64,000 nucleotides of DNA, from positions 7,500,278 to 7,564,277 of the forward strand of contig NC_134030.1 of the NCBI RefSeq assembly GCF_964204645.1, in the 5' to 3' direction. The notes under the pieces were generated by a model. It was given only the letters and a program-made list of their open reading frames with translations. It was not told the origin of the DNA and ran no database searches. This document shows, in pieces, positions 2,956-56,300 of the stretch (position 1 is the first letter of the stretch; each line of letters starts with the position of its first letter). A program made the position numbers and the translations under genes. The stretch is from Tubulanus polymorphus. Its lineage: Eukaryota; Nemertea; Palaeonemertea; Tubulaniformes; Tubulanidae.

Positions 2956-3171
2956 ATTGAGGAATCATCTATAGAAATGAGGCCTTTTTTTTTCAACCCT
3001 GTGATTAGTGTTTGATCATTTGGTATTTGATCATTTGAATTCCTCCATCCCTGAGTTATGTGAATGATGCAATCGATTAAGTATTTATATCTCTTAATTC
3101 AAGTGATATGATCGTGAAAAATGGCAAATCGTTTTTGAGGTATTGTAGACAAGAGTGATGACATAGGAGGA

Positions 3172-3800
3172 GACAAGAGAGTTGAGGAGGCTTGATGGGA
3201 GGGCATTGAGGGAGGCTTGGTGGGAGGGCATTGAGGGAGGGCTAGGGGGGAGGCATTGAGGGAGGCTAGGTGGGTGGGCAGGGAGGGCTTGGTGGGTGGG
3301 CATTGAGGGAAGGTGGGGTCTGGGAGGGATGGGGGTCTGGGAGGGAGAGCGGGAGGGATGGGGTTTGGGAGGGAAGGAGGGCGGGCGGGGTGGGGTTTGG
3401 GGGGAAGGGTGGGAGGGATGGGGTCTGGGAGGGAAGGAATGAGGGTGGGTGGGGTGGGGTGGGGTTTGGGAGTGTGGGAGGGACGGGTCTGGGAGGGCGG
3501 GAGGGACGGGGTCTGGGAGGGCGGGAGGGATGGGGTTTGGGAGGGCGGGAGGGATGGGGTCTGGGAGGGCGGGAGGGAAGGGGTCTGGGAGGGCGGGAGG
3601 GAAGGGGTCTGGGAGGGCGGGAGGGAAGGGGTCTGGGAGGGTCGGGAGGGATGGGGTTTGGGAGGGCGGGAGGGATGGGGTCTGGGAGGGCGGGAGGGAA
3701 GGGGTCTGGGAGGGCGGGAGGGAAGGGGTCTGGGAGGGCGGGAGGGAAGGGGTCTGGGAGGGTCGGGAGGGATGGGGTCTGGGAGGGTCGGGACGGGAGG
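3172..3800 (+). repeat. G-rich minisatellite (24-bp unit), G-quadruplex prone
   Basis: The first part (about 3172-3300) repeats a gagggaggcttggtggg-type motif. From about 3300 the unit becomes ggggtctgggagggc followed by gggagggaa, 24 bp, with occasional 25-bp variants. Every unit has several runs of three or more G on the plus strand. All three plus-strand frames stay open only because the period is a multiple of three and the composition lacks T-A-initial codons, so I do not call a protein here. Confidence 0.95.
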
Positions 3801-3804
3801 TTAG

Positions 3805-6618
3805 GTGAGTTGAAGTGTTACAATGTTTTAGTTAGACAGATGGGAATTGTGAAGATGAGAGAACAAATCACTGTCAAATCACAGGATGGAGTAATGCAGT
3901 GATCTATACTCTATATCTGCACACTATGTTACATGTATCTGTAACTGTTCAATCGGTCCAAAATCTACAGCAAAATTGTGAACACATTTATTGTGACGAA
4001 GGAACATAATTGATAACAGTTGTTGACAGTTGTTGTTAACTGTTATTGACAATAGAGACCAGTTTCTGATTGATTGAAAACTTTAGAGATGTTACTTATT
4101 GCTGCTCTGTTGTCACTGATTATTGTTTCTTTTTCTTTTCAGAATGAAATAAATGCAATAGAATCTACTAAGTTATGTTCAAAGCTAATGACGGATTTCT
4201 CTACAGAATTCTCAGGAGTCTCTGTCGACGATTTGAATTATTTTCGAACTAAAAACTGCTGTTTTAATCTCATCTGATGTTTTACTCTCATTTCAGAAAT
4301 ACACAGCAGCAGGTAAAACCTGTTTGGAAATATATCATCAGTATACATTATCTATCTGGTTATTTTTCATATCACAGCAGTTTGAGGTGAGTTTTCAATC
4401 ATTTAAATCCTGATCGAAGTTGAAATTATCGATGTCTTATGTTTTTCATACATATTTTCAGTGGATGGAGCGATAGAGGTTTTAGTGCCTAACAGCCGAC
4501 CTCAGATACCGTTAGCTTAAAACATTGAGTAAAATGGTGAGATATGGTTTGAAACTGCTCTTATTTCATGACAACTTCATGTAATGTATGCTTCTCTACA
4601 ACATTTGTATTTTAGGGGGCAAAATGTAGGTGAACCATTGCAAATCTGCAAACAGTAAACATTGTGTTCTACAAATTAAACACAAGTGGTGAGTGCCAGA
4701 ATTTACAACTCATAAGACCTGGTTCAAAGTTCACCTCAAACATATTGCTAGATCCTCCTCACATGCATCCTGATAATTCTGCAAACAAGTGAGATGAACG
4801 CTGTGAGCCTCAATCTGAAACAGCACTCATTTCATAACAACTTGACTGACAATTGATAGCATTTATGCATTTGTATTTTAGGAGCCAAAATAAGCGGAAC
4901 CTTTGACAGAATCTGTGAATGCTAACACTAGGAATTCACTGAAGATTTGTAAATGATGGACATTATTTAGATCCTCTCAATTCATAACAAGCATCGGTAA
5001 ATATCTCTGCAGATTCCAGTCTCTATAAAACTTGCTACTGTTAGACTAAATGTATGAAGTCATTTCCTGATAAAAAGTTTTTCTTTTATGACCATCCATT
5101 TCCATAAATAGAACGAATGACTTCTGAGCGAGAAACATTGGAGAATTTGAAATCGTTCTACGAGATTTAAACACCATAGAACTACAGTCAGTTATTAAAA
5201 TCAGTTAAGGTGAATTTTCAATCACTTCTATCCTGGTAAAAGTTAAGAAATTATGAAGTCAAAATTATGCAACTTTTGTACTTTAGGGGCCAAAATAAAA
5301 CTGAACCTCAGCTAATATGCATACAGTAGACATTGCAATTGAGTGCTACAAATCAAAACACAAGTCAGAAGTGGTGAGTTTTATTTCAATTGATTGGTGT
5401 AATTTGTGGTGATTTATCAGTTATTAACTTTATTTATCATTTTTTGTCCGGTTTCAATAGATATGTCTTCAAATCAAGTCAGGAAAATGTTTTTGGTTTC
5501 TGATGGGTCAATTTCAGCAGAAAGATATCAATGCTTTTTGTACATTTTATTTTAGAGTATATTCTATTCAGACGTCTCAGAAATCTGCATATACTCAACA
5601 TATGGTAGGTTTTCAGTCTAAAGTACACGAACAAGCTACATTTTCTATTTATTTCACTAATTATTTTCTAGTATAATTTCTCTCTTTCCAGAATGCGATG
5701 CACCACACACAAATTGCAGCTGGAGAAATTGAGAATATTCACCTTCAAATATTGAAGAAGCTCATTGTTGCTGAAGTTGCTGTTATTTCTATAAGAAGCC
5801 AAGTAATTTTCTCCACACGATTCAACCTGGTTTTCGCTTGTTATAAAACTTTGTATTTCAATTATTTGTAAATTCTTTTTTTGTTTTTCAGTAAATCCCT
5901 AGTGCTCTTAACTTAATGACATTATGGCTCTTGGAAGTGAAATCCTGCTAGAAATGGAAATGCTATGGTACAACACTTAAAAGACTGCCATCAGATAAAC
6001 ATAAGTTTGAAAATGGTTGGTTTTCTAATAGTATTTAGTCTTAATTTCTGACTGTTAGAGTTTTGTAAATACGATGCTAGTTGTACTCATGGTATGATTT
6101 TTTCGCAGCGTGAAATTTGTCCAATAGAACAGTTTGAAAGTTGATCAAAGATTGAATAATGGTGTTTAATTATTTGGAGTTCTATAAGGTAACTATAAAA
6201 CTCTTATGAAATTCCCAGAGTATCTGAAATCTGTGTCGCGAGATAGACTGATGATGATGAATTATAAGCATTAGGGGTAGGGCAGGGCACTGTCTATGTC
6301 GGTTCGGATTTAAGTAAACTCTTAGTCTTAAAATAAATTGTTAGAATTAATAAGAATAATGAACTTTTATTTGTTATACGAACTGGAATATTTGTGAACT
6401 CTTGTTGTGGTATATTTGAGCTGTGTGATGCCATGAATTATAAGCAATAATGAACTTTTAATTAGAAATATTAGTGTGATACATTTGAAATGGCCAAAAA
6501 AGTGAAGTGGCCGTGGCTGCCACAGCTGCTACGGTCCTGGTCTCTATGGTCAGAAATTCATGCCAGAAAACATGGATCATGCAATGTTATGATTAAATTA
6601 TTCTCTTATGTATTGTAG
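3805..6618. other. Non-coding stretch with splice-like borders
   Basis: No reading frame long enough to support a protein exon was recognised. Many polypyrimidine-AG and GGTGAG-type motifs occur (for example ttttcttttcag ending at 4141 and ggtgagttttcaatc at 4387), and related segments recur between 4.38 and 5.39 kb. This may be a spliced non-coding transcript, the 5' part of the transposase-like gene that follows, or decayed repeats. Translation of the region just before 4141 gives a hydrophobic string, but that is what a pyrimidine-rich intron end encodes. Confidence 0.35.
4384..5392 (+). repeat. Diverged segmental repeats
   Basis: Segment 4384-4440 resembles 5208-5262 (both ggtga, ttttcaatca, then tcctg). 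Segment 4608-4695 (ttttaggg, caaaat, then cacaagtggtgag) resembles 5280-5388, and 4820-4890 is a third, weaker relative. The repeated blocks begin after a TTTTAG and end before GTGAG, like duplicated exons with their flanking introns. Divergence is high, so the duplications are old. Confidence 0.6.
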
Positions 6619-7109
6619 GCGGTTTCTGTCTTATCGATTGTAAAATCAGTTGATGAACTGCTTCATCATGTTACGACCAAGCAGGATAAAATATATGGTT
6701 GCCCTATTTGTCCCCCAAGCATATTTAAACCAACATTTCTCAACCGGACCAAACGGTATTTTCAGAGTCACATTCGAGCAGGTGTTCATGTGCAAGGTAA
6801 GTTCCTAGATATCACACATGAATGTGACACTTTCAGGTTATGAGATTAAATTTTTGTTTAGGAAGACATGACAAGCTGCTCTATGGTCAACAATTATGCC
6901 TAGATCATTTTCCCTTATTTTTTCTTAAAGAGCCTATTGGTTGATTTTCCAGGTGAAATAGTTTTAGCCTGCCATTTACCATGCCATTCAAAAGACAGCT
7001 CGCATGGTCACTACCACTGCCCCTGATGCAAACGGATCATTCGCAGAAAATCTGACTTTACGACACATGTTCTGAAATGTGAACACGAAAACTTACTAGG
7101 GGATATTCT

Positions 7110-7612
7110 GTCCGAACGTGCAAGACCCGTTGTAGAAGCTCCATCCGAACGTGCGGGACCGGTTGTAGAAGCTTCGTTCGAACGTGCGAGTCTGTCGTAG
7201 AAGCTCCGTCCGAATGTGTGAGACCTGTCGTAGAAGCTCCATCCCAACGTGCGAGACCTGTCGTAGAAGCTCCAGCCCAACGTGTGAGACCGGTTGTAGA
7301 AGCTTCGTTCGAACGTGCGAGTCTGTCGTAAAAGCTTCGTCCGAATGTGTGAGACCTGTCGTAGAAGCTTCATCCGAACATGCGAGACCGGTTGTAGAAG
7401 CTTCGTCTGAACGTGCGAGACTGTCTTAGAAGCTCCATCCGAACGTGTGAGATGGGTTGTAGAAGCTTCGTCCGAACATGCGAGACCTGTCATAGAAGCT
7501 CCATCTGAACATGCGAGACCGGTTGTAGAAGCTTCGTCCGAACATTCGAGACCGGTTGTAGAAGCTCCATTCGAACATTCGAGACCGGTTGTAGAAGCTC
7601 TGTCCGAATGTA
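7110..7612 (+). repeat. 33-bp coding minisatellite inside the pseudogene
   Basis: About fifteen units built on gaccggttgtagaagcttcg, then tccgaacatgcga, encode an 11-residue repeat of the form ARPVVEASSEH. It lies between the zinc-finger and SWIM segments. Some units are short by a few bases, which shifts the frame and produces stops (for example at 7198). The intact units all keep one frame, which suggests that the array first expanded while the gene was coding. Confidence 0.85.
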
Positions 7613-8318
7613 TCTTGTTTCACATAGTCTTCATGGTGCTGGACATCCAATCCACGTGCTGATCAAGACAACAGCACTGGCGTTACTTAAATGTGAAAGC
7701 GAGAACTGTCAAACTGCAGCAGCAACCAGCACACGAGGTAGAAAGTCGATCAATTCATGGAGACCGAATGACCGATATATATTCATGTCAGTTTATAACG
7801 GAACTGTTCATAACTGGGCTTGTTTTGGTAGGTGCATTGTGCAATATGACATAATTAAAGACAAGATTATGTGTAAGTGTTGCTCAGTAATGCGAGGATG
7901 TGTTCATAAGACTGTTGCGAAATGGTATTTGAGGCAAGCCGGCATAACTCATACCACTGAACCCTATACAACAGATACGCAAAATAGGGGTATTGACTCG
8001 ACATATCCACCACGTGAGATCAGTGTAATGGTTGATTATATTAATACCAACAAGCGAATTCCAGCAAATATCTCCCATTACGATTATAGTACCAAGGTTT
8101 GGGAATTCAAACCGAAAGAAACGCAATGTGCATGTGGGTCAAAATATTTATGTGAGATGTTGTATTCAATGAATGGGAAGATTGTGGATAAAACCACAAT
8201 ACAAGAAGGTATATTAATTTACACACATCTGTGTACTTGTTCTGTTACTACGTATATATTATTCTGTAGGCACTAATTTAAGCTCATTTTTCTATTTTTT
8301 CAGATGTCATGGTATTTG

Positions 8319-16288: not shown

Positions 16289-19200
16289 ATGTTGTGCAGG
16301 TTTCTTACGATTCTGATGTTGATGTATTCCGCGTCAGAAATAGGTAAGTAATCATAAGTCGTAGCTTTCCGCTGCCTATTTTTGATTGCATTCAAAAATG
16401 AGTAAACCGCACCCAACCATTTATGATATGAATTTATAGATGCAGCTCAGCAACAATCTGCCATTACTAAAGAAATAGAGCAGGAAACGAGACGTGCTGG
16501 TGATGATGGACAACTCGAATGTACCGTCACTAATCCAGAACAATATCCCGTAAGTCATATTCATAATTCAGTCTGGAGACTAGAAGAAAGCTAGGTTGTC
16601 GAACAACAATAAACTTCAAACAATCACTAATCAGGGCCCAGTTTACAAAATAGTTGAACTCAAATTTGTTGTAATTGCCGTTGATTACTTCATATATTCT
16701 TCGATCAGGACAACAATTCAAACTTAACCGTTTTAGCCGCTTAACCTTTTTCATGAAACTGGGCCCAGAGCTTCAACAGAAGAGAACACTCAGGAATCTC
16801 TTCCCCCGAACAGATGTTAGATCAATCAAATCTGCTCCGGTCCGACACGACACACCCCTGCGACACTTGAGTACGCACTTACGTGAATTTTTGATATCGT
16901 CGGAAATCCAGACGCGGTGCCGGCCCCAGTTGCGGCCTCACTGCATTGTTCTATAGACCAATAAGAGTGTTGCGTTATGACATGTTTGGGCTATTGTGAC
17001 AATCCTCTCGTTGCAGATTATTTAGTATGAGCAGCACTTTCAAAATTCTCTTCAGCTCAATACATTAGGCAAATTCTTATTACTCTTATCCTCAATAAAA
17101 TACTGACAAACTCGAAGAATTGTACTGACAACATCTTTCTGAGGTTGGCAGCTCTGCTTATTTCAATACGGTGACTTTTCTCCATGGTGGAATCCACGTT
17201 GAACAAGGATGGCCACTAACCTCTGAAAATCGTAGAAAGTCTGAGCAATTTCTTCGCTTTAAGAAAGTCAGGGAACTAGATCGCGCGTAAAATCAAACAT
17301 TCAAATTTATTTTCTATAACCTCAATTGTTGCATTATGTACGATAAGTCAGTTTTGCTCCTTTGTTCCATTATTTGCCACGATTATATCGAGTTTATTGA
17401 GTTAAACTAATAATCATTTTCAGTTATTTTACACAAAATTTAATGCCTCTTGTCCTTTCCTATCAGGTAATTAAGTTCGACTGCAATTTTGTTTGTTTAT
17501 CCAAAGTGACCGCTGAAGTCCTGTCTCCTTCGGCCATAAGGTCAATAATACAGTTTTCTTCAAAAATTTACAGGTTTTCTGGATTCACATGGCGAACAGC
17601 GGGCCGAAATACATAAGCGCAGACACGACAATAACGTTGGCGAACTTCGACGTCGGGAACGGTCAATTGAAGTACGAAGTTCGCACGCAGAGAGTCGATT
17701 CGAATACTCTATATCGTCTAATCATCAGGGCTCTGAAAGAGGAAGATGCCGGCAAGTACCGCTGTCAAATCGGAGTCCCCGGCACTGATCAACCGTATAA
17801 AGACGGTATACTCGTAGTTCAAAGTAAGTTCAGAACAAATGACTGAAAAATCATCTAAAAGGGTGAGCGGCCACTCTATACGAATTCATCATTCTCCCCC
17901 AGCAGGGATTTGAACCTGATTCGATCGCTAAACTCGGCCGCGGCACGAAACCCTGTCGCACTAGACCGAGAGCGCAGGTTTGCCGCACGAAAACTTGCAG
18001 CGACAATCAGATTGACGGTTGTATATAATCGCTGAGGCAAATTTCTTGGATAAACTATAGCTGGTAAAACCTGGGCTAAAATAAAACAGGATTTCTGATG
18101 GGCTAATAATGACATCATCTAACATGCGCATGTAGCTGTGCACTCGGGCTAGTTAAGCAGGGTTTCTGACCGTGGCGAGTCTCGATGCGTGCCATCAGGA
18201 TGCAAATTCATGGGAATCAGATTTAAGTCGGAGAAATAGATAAACTATGTAGTATTCAGCTAACGAAACAATAGAAAGAAAACTACTGTAATATTCAAAT
18301 CTTCGTTTTGATTAGATTTTATTTCATGACATTTCGATCAATTTTCTGAGTACTAAAGATAAAGGACAAATGATCAAAATGTTGTGAATAAAAGCTAAAT
18401 CGTGATGAAGATTTTGATACGTGTACCGCTATTTGCATTCCTATCGTTTGAAATAGATTTGCAATGATTAAAAACTTAATTCATCCTTCAACACAGTATA
18501 AATGGATATAAAAATGATGGTTTATTCAGACTGCAGTTTCGCGGGGCGTAATGTGTTCAAAAGATTAAAGAGAAATATCCCAAAATGATTTATCCTGGAC
18601 TCTAATGAATACACTTTAGTTCTTAATTAGACATTCCACTGTGAAAGGAATGGTAAGCGTTACGTGTCAAATGTAATCTCTACCCTGCTGACATTGGATA
18701 TCATTATTCCTTTCAGGGTCGCCGAAGATCGACGAGTCTCGCACGTCGAAAGGACCGGTTTATGTGAGAGAAGGCGAGGACTATAATCTGACCTGCGTAG
18801 CTGAGGGAACGCCTCAACCGAGAATCACGTGGACTCGTGTTAAAGGAACTGCACTTCCAAATGGTCTTTTCAAAGTTAAGGTAAATGGATGGTCATTTTA
18901 TTGATTGTAGCTTTAGAAGACAGAGCTGCATGCCGTTCCTGATTTTCACAGTCAACCCCCGATATACCGCCCACATCGGTGCAGAATGATTTGGGCGGTA
19001 TAGAGAGTATGGCGGTATATCGGGGGTGTTTTACTATGTATTTATATATCTGCCAACAGGGGCTGTTGGCAGACCTGCGAAGAGCATGTCCTTATTTGTA
19101 GCAATTTTTTTTTACTTCGTCGTATGTCGAAGAAGTCTTCTTAATGGTTCTGGAGACCTGTCTGGAATGAACTCGCTCACAAAATGCTGTGCATGTTAAC

Positions 19201-22291: not shown

Positions 22292-24188
22292 GCTATTATA
22301 ACAAATATGTATACGTCGTGGTGTTTTTGGTTCGAAGTTGTATAGTGTTTATACAACTTTCAATGATATTTGCATTTTCATGGTCTACTTTCTTTAAGCA
22401 AGTTTACGAAGTAATACCTTTAGTATGATGAAGCTAAGCCCTGATTTGTGCTTTCTTTTCACAAAAATATCAAAATGTGCTGATAAGTGCTACTGATGAT
22501 TAACAAGTTATCTAAAAATAAGTTGATTGAAGTACACAAGTGAGTGTAGTTACTGTATTGATCAAGGCAATTAACAAAAGTGAAATTTATTGGTCAGTTA
22601 AAATCCCGGGAACGTGCAAACAACAGTGTTAGTAGAATATTGACTAAAAGTGGTCTCAAAGATCTGTAATAAGATCTTGTGAATAATATTTGATATGTTT
22701 TAATTCTACCTGTGGCATGTGAGTCTGCCGCTTTACCTGATGCTAATACATTCGCCGAAAAGATAGTTCTATTAAAAGTAGCTTGGAAATAGATTATAAA
22801 AGCAAATTTCCCTTAAACAAAACTTTGAAGTTGAACAAATTATGCATTTTAATCTAACTAGTGTCGAGTAATGAATGAAATCTGCCTTAGAAAAAATAGC
22901 TATATTCCTCACATGCCACAGTAGAACAATGCGGCTGTGCTAGATCGATTACGATTACGATTACGATTTATTTACACTCCAACCATTTACATGGTATATG
23001 GAGGAAAACTATTACACATGTATATACAAATATTTACAAAACAACACTAAAGTGATTAAAATTTAGAGAATGAAAACGTAACGAAATATATATATACATC
23101 AACTATTTACAATACTATATATACTATTGGAGGGATCTTAACTCTTTAGTGCTGCCCCTATATATAACGATAGCGGAATTTCTGTGAACTAAAATAGCAG
23201 CTCGTATTTTCCACCGGAATCCAATCTAATAATTGAATGATATCGCCATATTCTTTTAGCTAAATATATTCTACTTCATAACCACAATGTAACTGTTAAT
23301 GGGGTCACGAAGCCGGACAATGGAATGGTAAAAAGGCACAAACCTGGGAAAATGATTCCCCGGCCGCGTTTGATAAGAAAAAACACGCCGGGTCAATATC
23401 TCTGGGTCTCAAAAATAACGACTATCAGATTTTCTGTAATCCTTCAGTAATCGACCTTAAATCATCACTTGAAAAAGAGCGGCCCCTGGTTAACGGTTAC
23501 CTGGTATTGAGTTCCCTCCTCGCATGGTGACATAAGAAGTACAAATATCTTCCCACTTTATCTATTGCAAAGTGATCTTGAATATTTGGCACATTAAATT
23601 CCACCCCTTTCAAATTTGCATCATGCTCAGAATCGGACCAAGCATTTGGCCATGGCAAGCATAGATGTAGTATTATTTTCTAGGCCCTCTAAAGGCTACT
23701 CGGTCCAGTTGCATTTTGGAGTAGGCCTAACAATTATCGACTGAATGATGTCCTCATTAGTTGTAAATGAATAGATACATCAATAGATTATTGATGGCAG
23801 TAAATTATAACGAAATACTGAAAACGCTGCCATTGCACCACAGATTTTCGCATTTGCCCCACATCTTCCATTACCTTCTGCTGTAGTTAGACACGTCACT
23901 CAGAAATGATTTTAATTGCAGCCCGGGTATAGAAATGATTTTAATTGCAGATAAAATCTCCCTTTTTGAAAAATCTTTGATTTCGGAGATGGAAAAATTC
24001 ATTTTAACTGCAGATTTTACGATGTCAAGTCATTTTTGCCGAAACGAATTAGGGCTATCCATTAGATCGTTTGGAATTCAGACTATAGTAGGAGCCACTG
24101 CTGTCAAATAGAAATAACTGAAAGCGCGTTATAACAGTACCAGTAGACACAGTTCTCGGTATGGAGCCATGGTGAACCCAGTAAAACC
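22292..24188. other. Intergenic, no gene seen
   Basis: AT-rich spacer between two plus-strand genes. It contains a short attacg microrepeat near 22950 and a MITE end at 23149. The promoter of the next gene should lie at its right end, but no clear element was found. Confidence 0.4.
23149..23205 (-). mobile_element. MITE end, GTGCTGCCCC family
   Basis: Begins gtgctgcccctatatataac and continues to tgtgaacta. Its inverse matches the right ends at 48795-48887 and 51198-51295. Only one end is recognisable. Confidence 0.65.
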
Positions 24189-47191: not shown

Positions 47192-48794
47192 CTACTAAAA
47201 AACGGATTATTTGGAATATTCAACATAGAGTTCTATTCGATAAGACAAAACGAGAAAAACACAAATAACACACAAATAGATTCAATAAAATATTGTGAAT
47301 TTTGATTGATTGCCGAATCGACTTATTTTACAGAATTTCAAACGGTAAATGGTCAAAGTTCTTACCTGTAACTGATTTCAATCTATCTGTTCTGCTATTA
47401 TCAATCGTGAAAACGATATAATAAATAGATGTAGATAGTTTAACAGTTTTTTTCTGTTTTTGGTTCCCATAAATATGAATGTGCGGTATACAACGCGTAT
47501 TAGATATCGGACTGTAAACCACCGGGCTCGGAACCGGACTCAGACTCGCGTGCCACAGTAAGAATTAATTTCTAGTTTAGGCCTATTTACAATCAAATAA
47601 ATAACCATTCCAAAAATAAATTAAACTCACTGAAAAATGGCTGATGTGATAGAATGCTTTACTAAGGGGATCCGTTATAAATGGAGTATACGTATTGAAT
47701 ATATATTACGCAAAATAGATCAGAATCAGTCTACCTAGTGTACGCATATCGTTAATTTGGTTAAATGACCACAGCTATGTGCGTAGATCTAACTTAATGA
47801 ATAGTCTCCTATTACATGACTGACACCTTGACGAGCGGTGTACGGTCTCAGCGAGGAGTCCATGACTCCACGAGGAGAGAGCTTTCCATTGCTGTGCCGG
47901 GGTCTCCTGGCCAGGTTCAACCATACCAGACAAGTCTAGGGGTTGAGGCCAGACGAAGATCAGTCGTTTCCAAATTTCTCAATCTGCCACAATTACGTGT
48001 CCATTTTTTTCTACATGTATTTCGTAGTATCTCAACCTACTGGCATTGTGTTATCGGTAGGAAGATATGATTGTTGTCCAAGAATATTACACAAGTACAT
48101 TATAAATACACTATAGTTGATATGATAGAATGCTTGATATACTTTGTGAGATATATACATTCTTTGATGAATTGTCGTCAAGCGTCGTTTGATTTTCAAA
48201 GGCCTGATTTTTTCGGTTTTTTTATTAAGAGATAGTAATATTACGTTGGAATATACAATTTGTTGGAAATTATTGTAATAAGTATGACTATAGAATGTTG
48301 ACGTTGTTGTTGCAACATTTTCACGATTAAATCATGTAAAGTTTTTTGGTAATCCCAAGTTATTTGTTAGTATTAAGCATGATTTAAACCTCTATTTATG
48401 ATAATGAAACACGAGTTTTACTGGTTTCATTGAGTCTGGGGTTATATCCATGCTTAAGATTAAGTATAAAGGTGTTCCAATAAATAAAGTGTGTTCTTAA
48501 TATAGTTCTTTGTTTTGAATCGGTTCCAAACAGGACCGCATTTAGGAGAAATAATGGATACGTATCCGGGATACGCATTAAGTGCCCTTTTCTCAAATAT
48601 TTTATTCCTATATGCTATACGGAACTGTCCTTTTTCTGGGTTCTCTGCTCCCTCTCCCTTGCCACCTCTAAAACAAGAATGCTAGACTGAGGTACGGCCC
48701 TGGGTGATACTTCTCCGCAGTCGGATGCTTTTAGCTGCCGGGTTATGATTAAGTCTGATCATTATTTTTTTTTAAAGTAATGTCGGTCGAATCT
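47192..48794. other. Upstream of NFRKB, no gene seen
   Basis: It should contain the NFRKB promoter and possibly a 5' UTR exon. A gcgtgccacagtaagaatt string near 47546 matches the repeat family at 48795 and 50782. No coding exon was recognised. Confidence 0.4.
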
Positions 48795-48887
48795 GTGAAC
48801 TAACTTTTCCCGCGTGCCACAGTAAGAATATTGAGCCGTCGAGTTAGTTCATATATTCGCTGTCAATAGAATATATAGCGGCAGCAC
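48795..48887 (+). mobile_element. MITE end, GTGCTGCCCC family, copy 2
   Basis: Carries gtgaactaac, cgtgccacagtaagaata, an inverse gagttagttca, then tatatagcggcagcac. It is the same order as 51198-51295, so it is one terminal portion of that element. gtgaactaac and gttagttca(t) can form a hairpin. Confidence 0.75.
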
Positions 48888-49174
48888 CTGATAGTCAAAT
48901 GAATCTTGACGCAGTTGTCGGCGTTCCGGACTCTTAACTGCCTATACGCCCTAATGAATGTAACCCACCCTGGCATATAACTCCTAAACATTCTATCATT
49001 GCGGTATAACAACGTGCAATCATAAAGGTCTGGCTTATGTCGACAAGCGACGCGACGCCTACCGACTCCTACCCGGATGCCTGAGACTCAAACCGGCGAT
49101 CCTCGCAGCCGGCCGCTTTGACCTTGGAGACTCCAAGCTTTGACTGTCCTCCGATTCCCAGTAACCTACGGGCA

Positions 49175-50817: not shown

Positions 50818-51295
50818 GTGCTGCCCCATTACATATCATTGGCGGTGACATCCTCCCTCTGCAGGGAATCGAACCTGATGGCATCGCTACACTCAGCCAC
50901 GGCACGAACCCCTGCATCAGTAGACCGGGTGCGCAGGTACATGCGCAGCTTTCCGAACGAAAACTGGCGGCACCAATCAGATTGCTCGTTGTATAATCGT
51001 TGAGGCAAATTTCAAGGAAGAACTATAAATGGGAAAACCCGGGCTAAAATAAAACGGGATTTCTGATTGGCTAAAAATCACATCATCTGAACTGCGCATG
51101 TATCTGCGCACACGGTCGATTATGGCAGGGTTTCGTGCCGTGGCAATCTCGATGCCATCAGGTTCGAATCCCTGCCGGGGGAGGATGTGGCGGTGATTAT
51201 GTGAACTAACTTATTACTCGCATGCCACAGTTAGTAATTCTTGCTATTGGATTAGTTCGCATATTTACCGTTAATGTTATATATAGGGGCAGCAC
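50818..51295. mobile_element. tRNA-like inverted-repeat element, copy 2
   Basis: Ends gtgctgcccc (50818-50827) and ggggcagcac (51286-51295) are inverse copies. Inside, about 120 bp at the left (tcctccctctgcagggaatc, gaacctgatggcatcg, ccacggcacgaa) is the inverse of 51090-51190 on the right (cgtgccgtggcaatctcg, catcaggttcgaatcc, ctgccgggggagga). The strings TGGCTGAGTG and GGTTCGA-TCC on the minus strand look like pol III A and B boxes, but they are only about 17 bp apart, so no functional tRNA is present. Copy 1 is at 17893-18205. Confidence 0.8.
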
Positions 51296-51693: not shown

Positions 51694-53289
51694 CTAAGAT
51701 GTTTTTTGTTTTGCTGGTTTTCCACTGAATATACAACGACAGATGCAAGTTATCAAAGCATAGATAACAATAACAGAAAATACAATAGCAACGAAAGCAA
51801 TAGCTATAAGGTCTAAAAACAGAAATTCAAAGATAGACATCTTGTTCGCCGGTGTTTGCAAATGTTCGCTGCCATATTCGATGACGTGTTCGACCCATCG
51901 AGCAGCTTTATCCCGTGGCGGTTCCTCCATACGGAACAACTTACTCATTCGTAGCACGTTTGCTTTGTACGTCTGGACTTCGATCACCCGTCGGATTTTC
52001 GTCACGAGATCATCGACATCGAACTCGATCACATTCATGCATTCGGCGAAACCTTTTACTTTCGCTCGGAAACAATTGTAATGTTGGTCGGCGTGCATCG
52101 GAAAACCAATCATAGGTACGGCATTATACAATGCTTCGGCCTGTCCATTAGTCCCGCAGTGCGTTAGAAAAAGTTTTGTATTTGGATGCGCTAGGAGGTC
52201 ACTTTGCGGCAACCAGTTCAACAGTTTGACATTTTTTGGCACAACGAACTTCTTCTTTTGAGAATCGTTGAGGCTAAGTCGCCAGACTACTTGTTGCGGT
52301 ATCTGACCCAGAGCTGTAAAGAATTTCTCCAATGCGTAATCGGGCAGAGAACTGAATAGAGATCCGAATGAAAAAACAATAGCTCCTTGCTTCGAATTGT
52401 CCATCAACGATTGTAGGTCGTTTGAAAGTAATTTCGGAGGTCGGGATGCCAAACCTCCAACGTAAATTACATTTGGCATTGACATACGTGCGCAGTCCAT
52501 GTATGGACTCTGGTTTTGCAACCAGATTGCTGATTTCATTGCTATATCTCTAAGCGAGTTAATCTCCGTGTGTCCTTTTCTGTGAAGGAAATCGATGAAC
52601 TTCTCCTCTTCGACGAAAAACTCGGGCAATGAATGCAGAATAGCTGACCATTTCAGTATTTCGAACCTGGTTTGAATATTGTTGCCTTCGTGTAGAAGCA
52701 TACACGGCAATACCGAACTGTAAGGATGCATTCGTAGCATGTACGTGTAAAGTTGAGTGCTTAAACCTGCGAACGGAATCCCGAGCCTGAACGGAATGAT
52801 GTGATATGCGAAGAACAGACTGTCACAGACGGCGAAATCGAATTTCATCGCTTTCAACTTGGCAAACAGCTTTTCATCGGTTACAGCGCTGTACGAATCG
52901 TAGTGAAGTTTCGGTTTGAACGCGCTCTGGGCCATCTCAGCTTCGTTTTTCTGCGCAAAAATTCCGGATCGAATTTCTTCTTCCATGACATCCGGCTGAG
53001 CCATCGTCGCATTTGGCGAGTAATAGTGTACATACTTAAGTTCTGCGAGGTATTTCAACTGAGGTGGTTGTTTGTAATGCGTGTCCGTAAGGATGTACAC
53101 TTCGTGGCCTCGTTTAATTAAACCATCTGCCACGGCTGCATGCTCAGCTAGGTGACCGCCAACAGTCATCGGCATCATTAGGACACGCGCACCATTTACA
53201 GCAACATTGCTTAGCGACAACAACAACAACAACAACGACAACGACAACGACAACACGGCAAACATCGAAATCCTCATCTGAAAATTCAT
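51694..53289 (-). CDS. UDP-glycosyltransferase (UGT family, GT1)
   Basis: A single uninterrupted reading frame of 531 aa, the usual UGT length. It would transfer a sugar from a UDP-sugar to small lipophilic acceptors in the ER lumen. Residues 1-33 are a signal peptide with an LSLSLSLLLLLLSLS core; VGGH with His46 is the expected catalytic base, and CDSLF further on holds the likely partner Asp. Residues 358-402 carry the UGT signature (NWLPQSDLLAHP ... THCGTNGQAEALYNAVPMIG ... HADQ). Residues about 494-520 form a C-terminal membrane helix, and the end KPAKQKTS has Lys at -3 and -5, a dilysine-type ER-retrieval signal. The start is the first ATG of the frame (53289); M5 at 53277 is an alternative. 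The frame is open further upstream only to a GTG. The substrate cannot be inferred. Being intronless is unlike its neighbours and may reflect retrocopy ancestry. Confidence 0.95.
   Translation of the reverse strand: MNFQMRISMFAVLSLSLSLLLLLLSLSNVAVNGARVLMMPMTVGGHLAEHAAVADGLIKRGHEVYILTDTHYKQPPQLKYLAELKYVHYYSPNATMAQPDVMEEEIRSGIFAQKNEAEMAQSAFKPKLHYDSYSAVTDEKLFAKLKAMKFDFAVCDSLFFAYHIIPFRLGIPFAGLSTQLYTYMLRMHPYSSVLPCMLLHEGNNIQTRFEILKWSAILHSLPEFFVEEEKFIDFLHRKGHTEINSLRDIAMKSAIWLQNQSPYMDCARMSMPNVIYVGGLASRPPKLLSNDLQSLMDNSKQGAIVFSFGSLFSSLPDYALEKFFTALGQIPQQVVWRLSLNDSQKKKFVVPKNVKLLNWLPQSDLLAHPNTKLFLTHCGTNGQAEALYNAVPMIGFPMHADQHYNCFRAKVKGFAECMNVIEFDVDDLVTKIRRVIEVQTYKANVLRMSKLFRMEEPPRDKAARWVEHVIEYGSEHLQTPANKMSIFEFLFLDLIAIAFVAIVFSVIVIYALITCICRCIFSGKPAKQKTS
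53218..53253 (-). repeat. CAA/CGA microsatellite coding the UGT signal core
   Basis: Plus-strand caacaacaacaacaacgaca and acgacaacgacaa repeats encode alternating Leu and Ser in the UGT signal peptide. Confidence 0.85.
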
Positions 53290-53379
53290 GAATATTCCCC
53301 TTATTAAATTCTGTGTTATTTCGTCAAGATATGAACTAAACTGAACTGAAATGCCCTTAAGTATTGTCGTAGTAGACAC

Positions 53380-56300
53380 GACCGAATGAACGCACTGGAC
53401 TCCAGTTTGGAGAATTAATTATGCCTTTGTCCCTTAAACCATTCATTATCTGGGCAGAGATATGTAGGGCTACTGTAAATCTAAGATTTCACAGATTTAC
53501 TTTAAAGCCTTTCAATAAAACTGTAGAGCTTAATTAAATGCAGATTTACTCACACGGAGCAAGCAATAGCAAACTGTTTGTACATCTACCAGAATATCTT
53601 ACAAAAAAAGACAATTTAGACATCTTGAGCGATGTGTAGCTGGTGAAAATTATTCTCAACTTACCTTGCAGCCCTAGTTCACTCTGTACACTATTTGCAT
53701 GGAATAAATCCACACTAATAATATAGCATTCAATTCATCGACTATTCTCTAGTCTTAGAAACGACTATTATCGTAGAAACCACAGGTGTCAAAGGTGTTT
53801 TGCCAATACCATCCATATGTAGTAGAGCATGTATAACAATCGACAGATAGTTAAGTTATTATTAGATTTAATTGGGAAATAGTTGTAGATACTAGATTTT
53901 CCACTATACATAGTCTAATCGTTTGTAATGCCTGCCAATGATCAGGATGTATGCCCGACACAATTTACATTGATAAAGTCTTGCCATTCTTCAAATGCCA
54001 GGTCTTAGTCCTATAAGTGGCATAAAGAATTATTGTATGGATTGTACCAACCTGAAATACATATCTCAAAAAACATATCTTGCTTGGAAAACACAATGTC
54101 CTCAGTTTCCTTGGGATCCATTTTTAATCAATAAATAAACGCTATGTAAAAGAGGATTCGAAAATTGGTTCTATGTGCTTTTGGAGGTTACCAAATGTTA
54201 ACTTGCAGTGGCGTTGTAGTGGAGCGACTGCAGCCGCATAAGCCGTGGCAATTATCTACTGTTTGACGTTTTTCTCTTTGAATACTATGTTTTTGACAAA
54301 ATATCATAATCTGTCAAAAATCAGCAATTGGTCATGGCATTCAAAAATTGCTTGCAACACGCCTGACTTGGGTAGTAGGTACACAGGACTATAAACAAAT
54401 TGTGGCAGCCAATCAAGCTGCTGCAGAACTCTATCAAAAAACAACACAAATACATTAAGAGAATCTTAGATTTTAAGCATCAGTTTCATCATTTATTATT
54501 GAAATGATAATACCAGTTATACTATTGTGTTAGTTGGTATAAAATTCTTTTTATTTACACGCTTATCTGTTTCTCAGATGACCCATATAATCATCGTTGT
54601 CTTATCAAATTTGATGTGGTGACGTAGGTAAATGCTTCAGAGGAGAAATGCTCATTTTCATTGTAAAATTTGAGGAAATTAGGCTAGCACAGGTACTTGT
54701 TACATAGAGCATGCCCGCAATATGGACACCTTGCATGCATTTGAGTCATAGCACCAGCTTCAACTAGCGGACACAAAAACATGAAATAGTTCTAAGTTCC
54801 GATGAATAGTCATCTCGCAATTGTTGTGACTGAAAATGAGCATTGTTAAAAAAAAGACTAGAAAGTATCAACAACTAGTACTTGAATTATCATAGGATTG
54901 ATGATTCCTTTAAAATCAGCCTTTGAACTAGAATATTCATTCGTGACTAGAGCCATGTGAATCCGCGTTGAGACAATGAAAAATCTACTGCAAATTGCAT
55001 GAATGCGTGTCTATGCGAACTGGTATTCATCACACAGGTGTCAGTAGCGTAGTGTAGCATAGCGTGGTAGCATAGCTGATGAAAATTGATTGGCGTAAAA
55101 AATTACATTCATATTTCAAATATTCCATCGAAATCGTCGTAATTAAAAATTGTGTAGAATACTGCATCTTACATAGAGCTTCATAATAGTTTATAATCAA
55201 GTTATAGCCTTCGAACCTTATCAAAACGATATATGTTTATATAGTTGTTGACAACCTTTTTTCAGTAGCTCTGAACATATTAAATCTGTTTAGTGCATAT
55301 GCAATTTAAAAACTACCTCTTTGGTGTTGTTTAGTCACATCGGTGGTGTGACTGGGCAAATTACATCGTTTCTGTCACTGCAGCAATTCAGATACTTTTA
55401 ACCATGTCATGTAGCATGTGAAATAACAATTTAATACATAGTTAAACAACTCCATTTAAAAATCTTGATTTTAAGGGCATACACACGTATTCATAAAACT
55501 CTTACTGCTTAAATCCGAACTGGTTAACAATTGAAAGACATATAAAAAACCTTTGGCCCATTTTCTCAACTTCACAGCATAATTCATCAACTCAATCATC
55601 AGCAAATAGTTGGCACAGGACCATAATTATTCAACTTATTACAGATATAATCGATTACTTTTCAAGACAGGTCAAGGGCTTGCTATAGTATGCCTATGCT
55701 TACATCATAATACAGTCAATTGCCAGAAATAAATGTGTAAAGATTGCATGCAAACTTGCATTAGACATGAGAAATAGTTGTACATTAACAAATATTCAGA
55801 CTTATAGCCTATGTCAGTAAAAGCTTGCTTTCATAGGGAGAAGGGGCATGGTTATTGCATGTATGGCGAGGACTTATTCTCATATGGTATAATGCAGGAT
55901 ACATGCCTTTCAAAGAGCTAAAATCCACATCAACACGTGAATCAGTGCATACCACATAAGCATGCCGAGCACAAAGCGGGATGGTTCTGCTTGGCAGCAT
56001 TTACGAAACTACTTACAAAAATTAATTTTCTTAAGCAAACTGCATTTGAGATGTCCCTAAAAATGTTCTTAAGCTAATACGTTCTGCAACCCCAACGCTA
56101 AAAACCTATATGACAACGATATAGAATATCCTCTGATACATCAACGAGGTATAAAGATGACCAATTTTACCCGTTTTGAATTGTTTTCAGCATGTAAAGC
56201 TTCGTATTACTTTCGTACACACATTTTAGAAGTTCTCGCAGCACAAATGCCCTATCGCTTTAGTTTTAAGAAGAAATATCACGCAAATGCAGATACACAA

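Follow-up and report, generated by a model that had tools for sequence, protein, structure and literature searches.

A short inverted-repeat transposon with tRNA-Ser-like ends, nested in an older MITE of Tubulanus polymorphus

Nested MITEs in the 64-kb window

The window analysed in this work is the whole 64-kb stretch of Tubulanus polymorphus DNA. It contains a PH-domain gene and, at 51694-53418 (minus strand), a UDP-glucuronosyltransferase encoded in one uninterrupted frame of 574 codons, which is an intronless gene or a retrocopy; some 400 bp separate it from the nested elements described below. Two tandem repeats are also present, one at 3094-3902, where several proline/serine-rich or glycine-rich frames are open on both strands, and another at 7011-7619 (minus strand), encoding (S-D-G/E-A-S-T-T-G-L)n-like units.

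The segment 50818-51295 consists of two nested, unrelated MITEs, a younger inner one inside an older outer one. The initial annotation had described a single element here; its boundaries were wrong and two families had been merged, as seen from the empty-site alignments and from the ends and duplications of the inner MITE. The features are as follows:

50818-51295, no strand assigned: outer, older MITE, GTGCTGCCCC...GGGGCAGCAC; shown by empty-site relatives whose alignment crosses the junction without a break
50840-50848, no strand assigned: left copy of the target-site duplication TGGCGGTGA, read directly
50849-51187, no strand assigned: inner MITE, 339 bp, with TIR CATCCTCCC and foldback arms; both ends are shared by 40 genome copies, each of which has a private target duplication of 8 or 9 bp
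50849-50948, minus strand: left inverted arm (L type), 84% identical to the inverted right arm; tRNA-like sequence reads outward
50858-50904, minus strand: tRNA-Ser(AGA)-like block, A box/D arm followed by T arm/B box, without anticodon and variable arms
50865-50875, minus strand: B-box string GGTTCGATTCC of the inner left arm, string match
50890-50899, minus strand: A-box-like TGGCTGAGTG of the inner left arm, string match
51092-51187, plus strand: right inverted arm (R type), foldback partner of the left arm; B-box half reads outward
51161-51171, plus strand: B-box string GGTTCGAATCC of the inner right arm, string match
51188-51196, no strand assigned: right copy of the target-site duplication TGGCGGTGA, read directly
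17890-18188, plus strand: old copy of the inner MITE, diverged and with a degraded right end, 79% identity, aligned with 15 other old copies
23134-23199, plus strand: partial relative of the outer MITE, from sequence comparison
48781-48897, plus strand: relative of the outer MITE, 73-74% identity

In a genome-wide DNA search, only 50849-51187, with small overhangs, recurred. Dozens of copies about 99% identical were found on most large contigs (97-100% for the best 40 by score), and the spread of the inner MITE is therefore a recent burst. The family has some 900 copies: a 27-mer from its core has 923 genome matches within three mismatches, against none for the reversed control pattern, and a 29-mer from its right end occurs exactly 281 times. 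Every copy begins with CATCCTCCC and finishes with GGGAGGATG, the flanks differing from copy to copy. Of the 40 copies with intact ends, 29 have a perfect duplication, which measures 9 bp exactly in 19 copies and 8 bp exactly in the other 10; no perfect duplication is 5-7 or 10-13 bp long. The arms, about 100 bp each, are 84% complementary, with a single-strand folding z of -17, which bears out the foldback of the initial annotation, with arms at 50849-50948 and 51092-51187. Its ends, however, are not GTGCTGCCCC, which belongs to the outer MITE, but CATCCTCCC...GGGAGGATG (50849 and 51187), bordered by the 9-bp duplication TGGCGGTGA. The diverged copy reported at 17893-18205 was also recovered, at 17890-18188.

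With its TIRs, its duplications of fixed length and its high, homogeneous copy number, the inner element is a MITE, and at 339 bp it is too short for a transposase gene. Neither a SINE-type 3' tail nor duplications of variable length were found in the 40-copy set. Given TIRs, fixed 8-9-bp duplications and no tail, only cut-and-paste transposition in trans fits. Retroposition by a LINE, of a SINE or of an opposed SINE pair, would account for the A-box and B-box strings and for the tRNA-Ser similarity presented below, but it is very improbable: the duplications are fixed at 8-9 bp, the inverted ends are identical in all copies, both boundaries are defined by TIRs, and there is no 3' tail or A-run. 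Two opposed SINEs without shared TIRs, the case named earlier as a refutation, are excluded by ends and 8-9-bp duplications common to all 40 intact copies.

Regarding the outer MITE, it measures about 130-160 bp (130 bp between GTGCTGCCCC and GGGGCAGCAC once the insert is removed), has GTGCTGCCCC strings at 50818 and 51286, and probably has its true ends some 10-20 bp beyond GTGCTGCCCC and GGGGCAGCAC. The insert and one duplication were removed, and the joined flanks were compared with copies retrieved using the relative at 48760-48900. The alignment runs unbroken across the junction in nine loci, and GTGCTGCCCC...GGGGCAGCAC is therefore older and was present before the inner insertion. The separate ends at 23149 and 48795, previously assigned to the foldback family, proved in sequence comparison to be relatives of this outer MITE.

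Similarity of the arms to tRNA-Ser(AGA)

Fifteen older copies, whose identity to the young one is 81-92%, yielded an ancestral consensus of the inner family (340 bp). Read outward, the left arm of the consensus is collinear with tRNA-Ser(AGA) genes from this genome, the A box/D arm being followed by the T arm/B box. The 5' block reads TGCCGTGGCTGAGTG--TA--GCGATG, against TGTCGTGGCCGAGTGGTTAAGGCGATG in tRNA-Ser(AGA), and the 3' block CAGGTTCGAATCCCTGCCGA, against CAGGTTCGAATCCTGCCGA; the two are joined by CCAT, and neither the anticodon loop and arm nor the variable arm of the tRNA has a counterpart. The alignment score is 45.75, whereas 1000 dinucleotide shuffles compared with all tRNAs at hand gave a mean of 18.8 (sd 2.6) and a maximum of 37.8, and the best of 2068 real 340-bp windows reached 23.75. 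None of 5000 shuffles reached the score of the 3' half of the tRNA-like arm taken alone, and 11 of 5000 reached that of the 5' half. Isotypes other than serine scored 21 or less, in a comparison of seven isoacceptor types for six amino acids (Ser, Ala, Thr, Arg, Gln and Cys) in which serine had been picked by eye, on its visible resemblance, ahead of scoring. In the copy within the window, block 50858-50904 aligns locally with tRNA-Ser(AGA) at 35.75 (shuffle maximum 27.5). The right arm retains the 3' half of the likeness, with a score of 30.25.

Neither the Rfam tRNA covariance model (RF00005), applied to the window and to the old inner-MITE copies, nor ARAGORN, applied to the inner-MITE arms, recognised a tRNA. 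For the Rfam model this is expected because two tRNA arms have been lost. The same two results, together with an abnormal spacing of the A and B boxes, would suit an ordinary MITE whose resemblance to a tRNA arose by chance or by convergence on TTCGAA-rich motifs. That explanation is nevertheless unlikely: the similarity lies in two collinear blocks of one isotype on one strand, none of the 1000 shuffles or 2068 real windows reached its score, and two end-only elements of the kind described below (L128 and L140) are still closer to tRNA-Ser in the 5' half (TGTCGTGGC).

The initial annotation had suggested a MITE that captured a SINE. The presence of sequence derived from a pol III gene in the arms is supported by the scores above, but the source appears tRNA gene-like rather than SINE-like: the captured piece has neither a tail nor a SINE body. 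A tRNA-Ser-headed SINE could instead have inserted near the end of a DNA transposon, and an inverted duplication could then have carried it to the other end as well, a route made conceivable by the known capture of a V-SINE inside the mammalian mariner MITE MER6 (PMC6887750). We regard it as having a small but real chance, given that the arms contain no SINE body or tail and that a tRNA-Ser query of the genome led only to tRNA-gene-like places (15 of 15 candidates), with no tRNA-Ser-headed repeat among the matches.

Both arms had been credited with A-box-like and B-box-like strings. Perfect B boxes do occur in both, GGTTCGATTCC (50865-50875, minus strand) and GGTTCGAATCC (51161-51171, plus strand) being the only perfect B-box strings of the 64-kb window, but by string match the A box is confined to the left arm; no match was found in the right arm, where it has been lost. 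The starts of the A and B boxes are 24 bp apart, compared with 53 in the tRNA, a spacing too short for normal TFIIIC binding. With this spacing and without the right-arm A box, pol III transcription of the inner MITE is doubtful. The boxes are most likely relics, retained as part of a transposase site and not for use by pol III. There is perhaps a slim chance that TFIIIC or other pol III factors continue to bind the two B boxes of these tRNA-derived TIRs and thereby aid transposition or spread, whether by keeping chromatin open, by outward pol III transcription or by contacting the transposase; a class II element would then depend on class III gene machinery.

The ends as a putative mobile unit and candidate transposases

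Searching by pattern for right ends that adjoin a foreign interior gave 37 places, some of which were fetched. Among these are end-only elements of 98-111 bp, consisting of an R-type end and an L-type end and nothing else, and flanked by duplications of 8-9 bp (CTCCCAGCA at L133, TACTAAACT at L138 and CCAATCAT at L137). In another element (L091:773-1303) the inner-MITE ends enclose a different interior, with a 7/9 duplication. The terminal 46-52 bp or so are thus common to elements with different interiors or none. The end-only elements and their duplications suggest that some 50 bp at each end, most of it of tRNA origin, would suffice for mobilisation. Alternatively, these elements could be rarely moved products of internal deletion, which would leave the point on end sufficiency unaffected.

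The interior of the relative at L091 (897-1132) is itself an abundant repeat of about 236 bp, with 1588 first-look candidates and copies 90-96% identical. A longer element was suspected at C5:23107997 and at copies on C7 about 3.48 kb apart, and was rejected: the locus is a NEIL3 gene with introns, preceded by a solo TIR-like stretch. This 53-bp stretch lies about 150-200 bp before the NEIL3-like gene start (L127, G000:C5:23107970-23110470; L132, G000:C7:1225690-1225890) and has about ten copies, three of them on C7 at a spacing of about 3.48 kb. The flank outside the TIR is common to the copies, which therefore arose by ordinary duplication and not by transposition.

Merlin and Mutator elements generate target duplications of 8-9 bp, and on this length a transposase of either type is proposed for the inner MITE; both MULE and Merlin transposases are encoded in the genome. 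Mutator MITEs also resemble it in having duplications of about 9 bp and long TIRs (about 100 bp), and Merlin (IS1016-like) elements and their MITEs in having 8-9-bp duplications. The linked transposase that the initial annotation had proposed to look for was not found: the inner-MITE TIRs are absent within 1.5 kb on either side of some 30 MULE loci, a span that may be too short, save for one chance MITE insertion in L054, and within 0.9 kb on either side of the Merlin loci inspected (6 of 43 matches). We know of no MULE with tRNA-derived TIRs. The MULE families L036/L037/L042 and L039/L041 were rejected as the TIR source, having other ends and tandem subterminal repeats; their elements carry inverted subterminal arrays of a tandem unit of about 16 bp (CCACTAGTCCGGGGGT and variants).

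The inner element is thus, with good probability, a non-autonomous class II cut-and-paste transposon of 339 bp with tRNA-Ser-derived ends, mobilised in trans, that lies within an older MITE. Its terminal inverted repeats would go back to a tRNA-Ser gene or pseudogene from which the anticodon and variable arms were lost, the reduced piece having become duplicated head-out at both ends. A transposase from elsewhere, of Merlin or Mutator type, may then have come to recognise CATCCTCCC together with the tRNA-derived T-arm/D-arm sequence.

Relation to known elements and significance

Like tRNA-derived SINEs, the inner MITE carries A-box and B-box strings and resembles tRNA-Ser, but it differs from them in having no tail and in possessing TIRs and fixed 8-9-bp duplications. 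A parallel among DNA transposons is MER6/MER6A, a mammalian mariner MITE containing a V-SINE that has lost its tRNA head and lies in the interior, apart from the 24-bp TIRs and TA duplications of the element (PMC6887750). In both cases a DNA transposon spreads a piece from the world of pol III genes and SINEs, but whereas the SINE piece of MER6 is interior, the tRNA part of the inner MITE lies within the TIRs themselves. MITEs with SINE pieces are already known, and no report of one with tRNA-derived TIRs was found in the literature searched, Repbase and Dfam being outside the search, so that the family may already be catalogued there.

To our knowledge, the origin of the inverted ends of DNA transposons is mostly unknown. 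The inner MITE would offer a traceable one, its ends, down to the 98-bp mobile minimum, being largely a rearranged tRNA-Ser gene. It would indicate that a host gene sequence can turn into a transposase recognition site, and it makes the role of a B box within TIRs in mobility testable.
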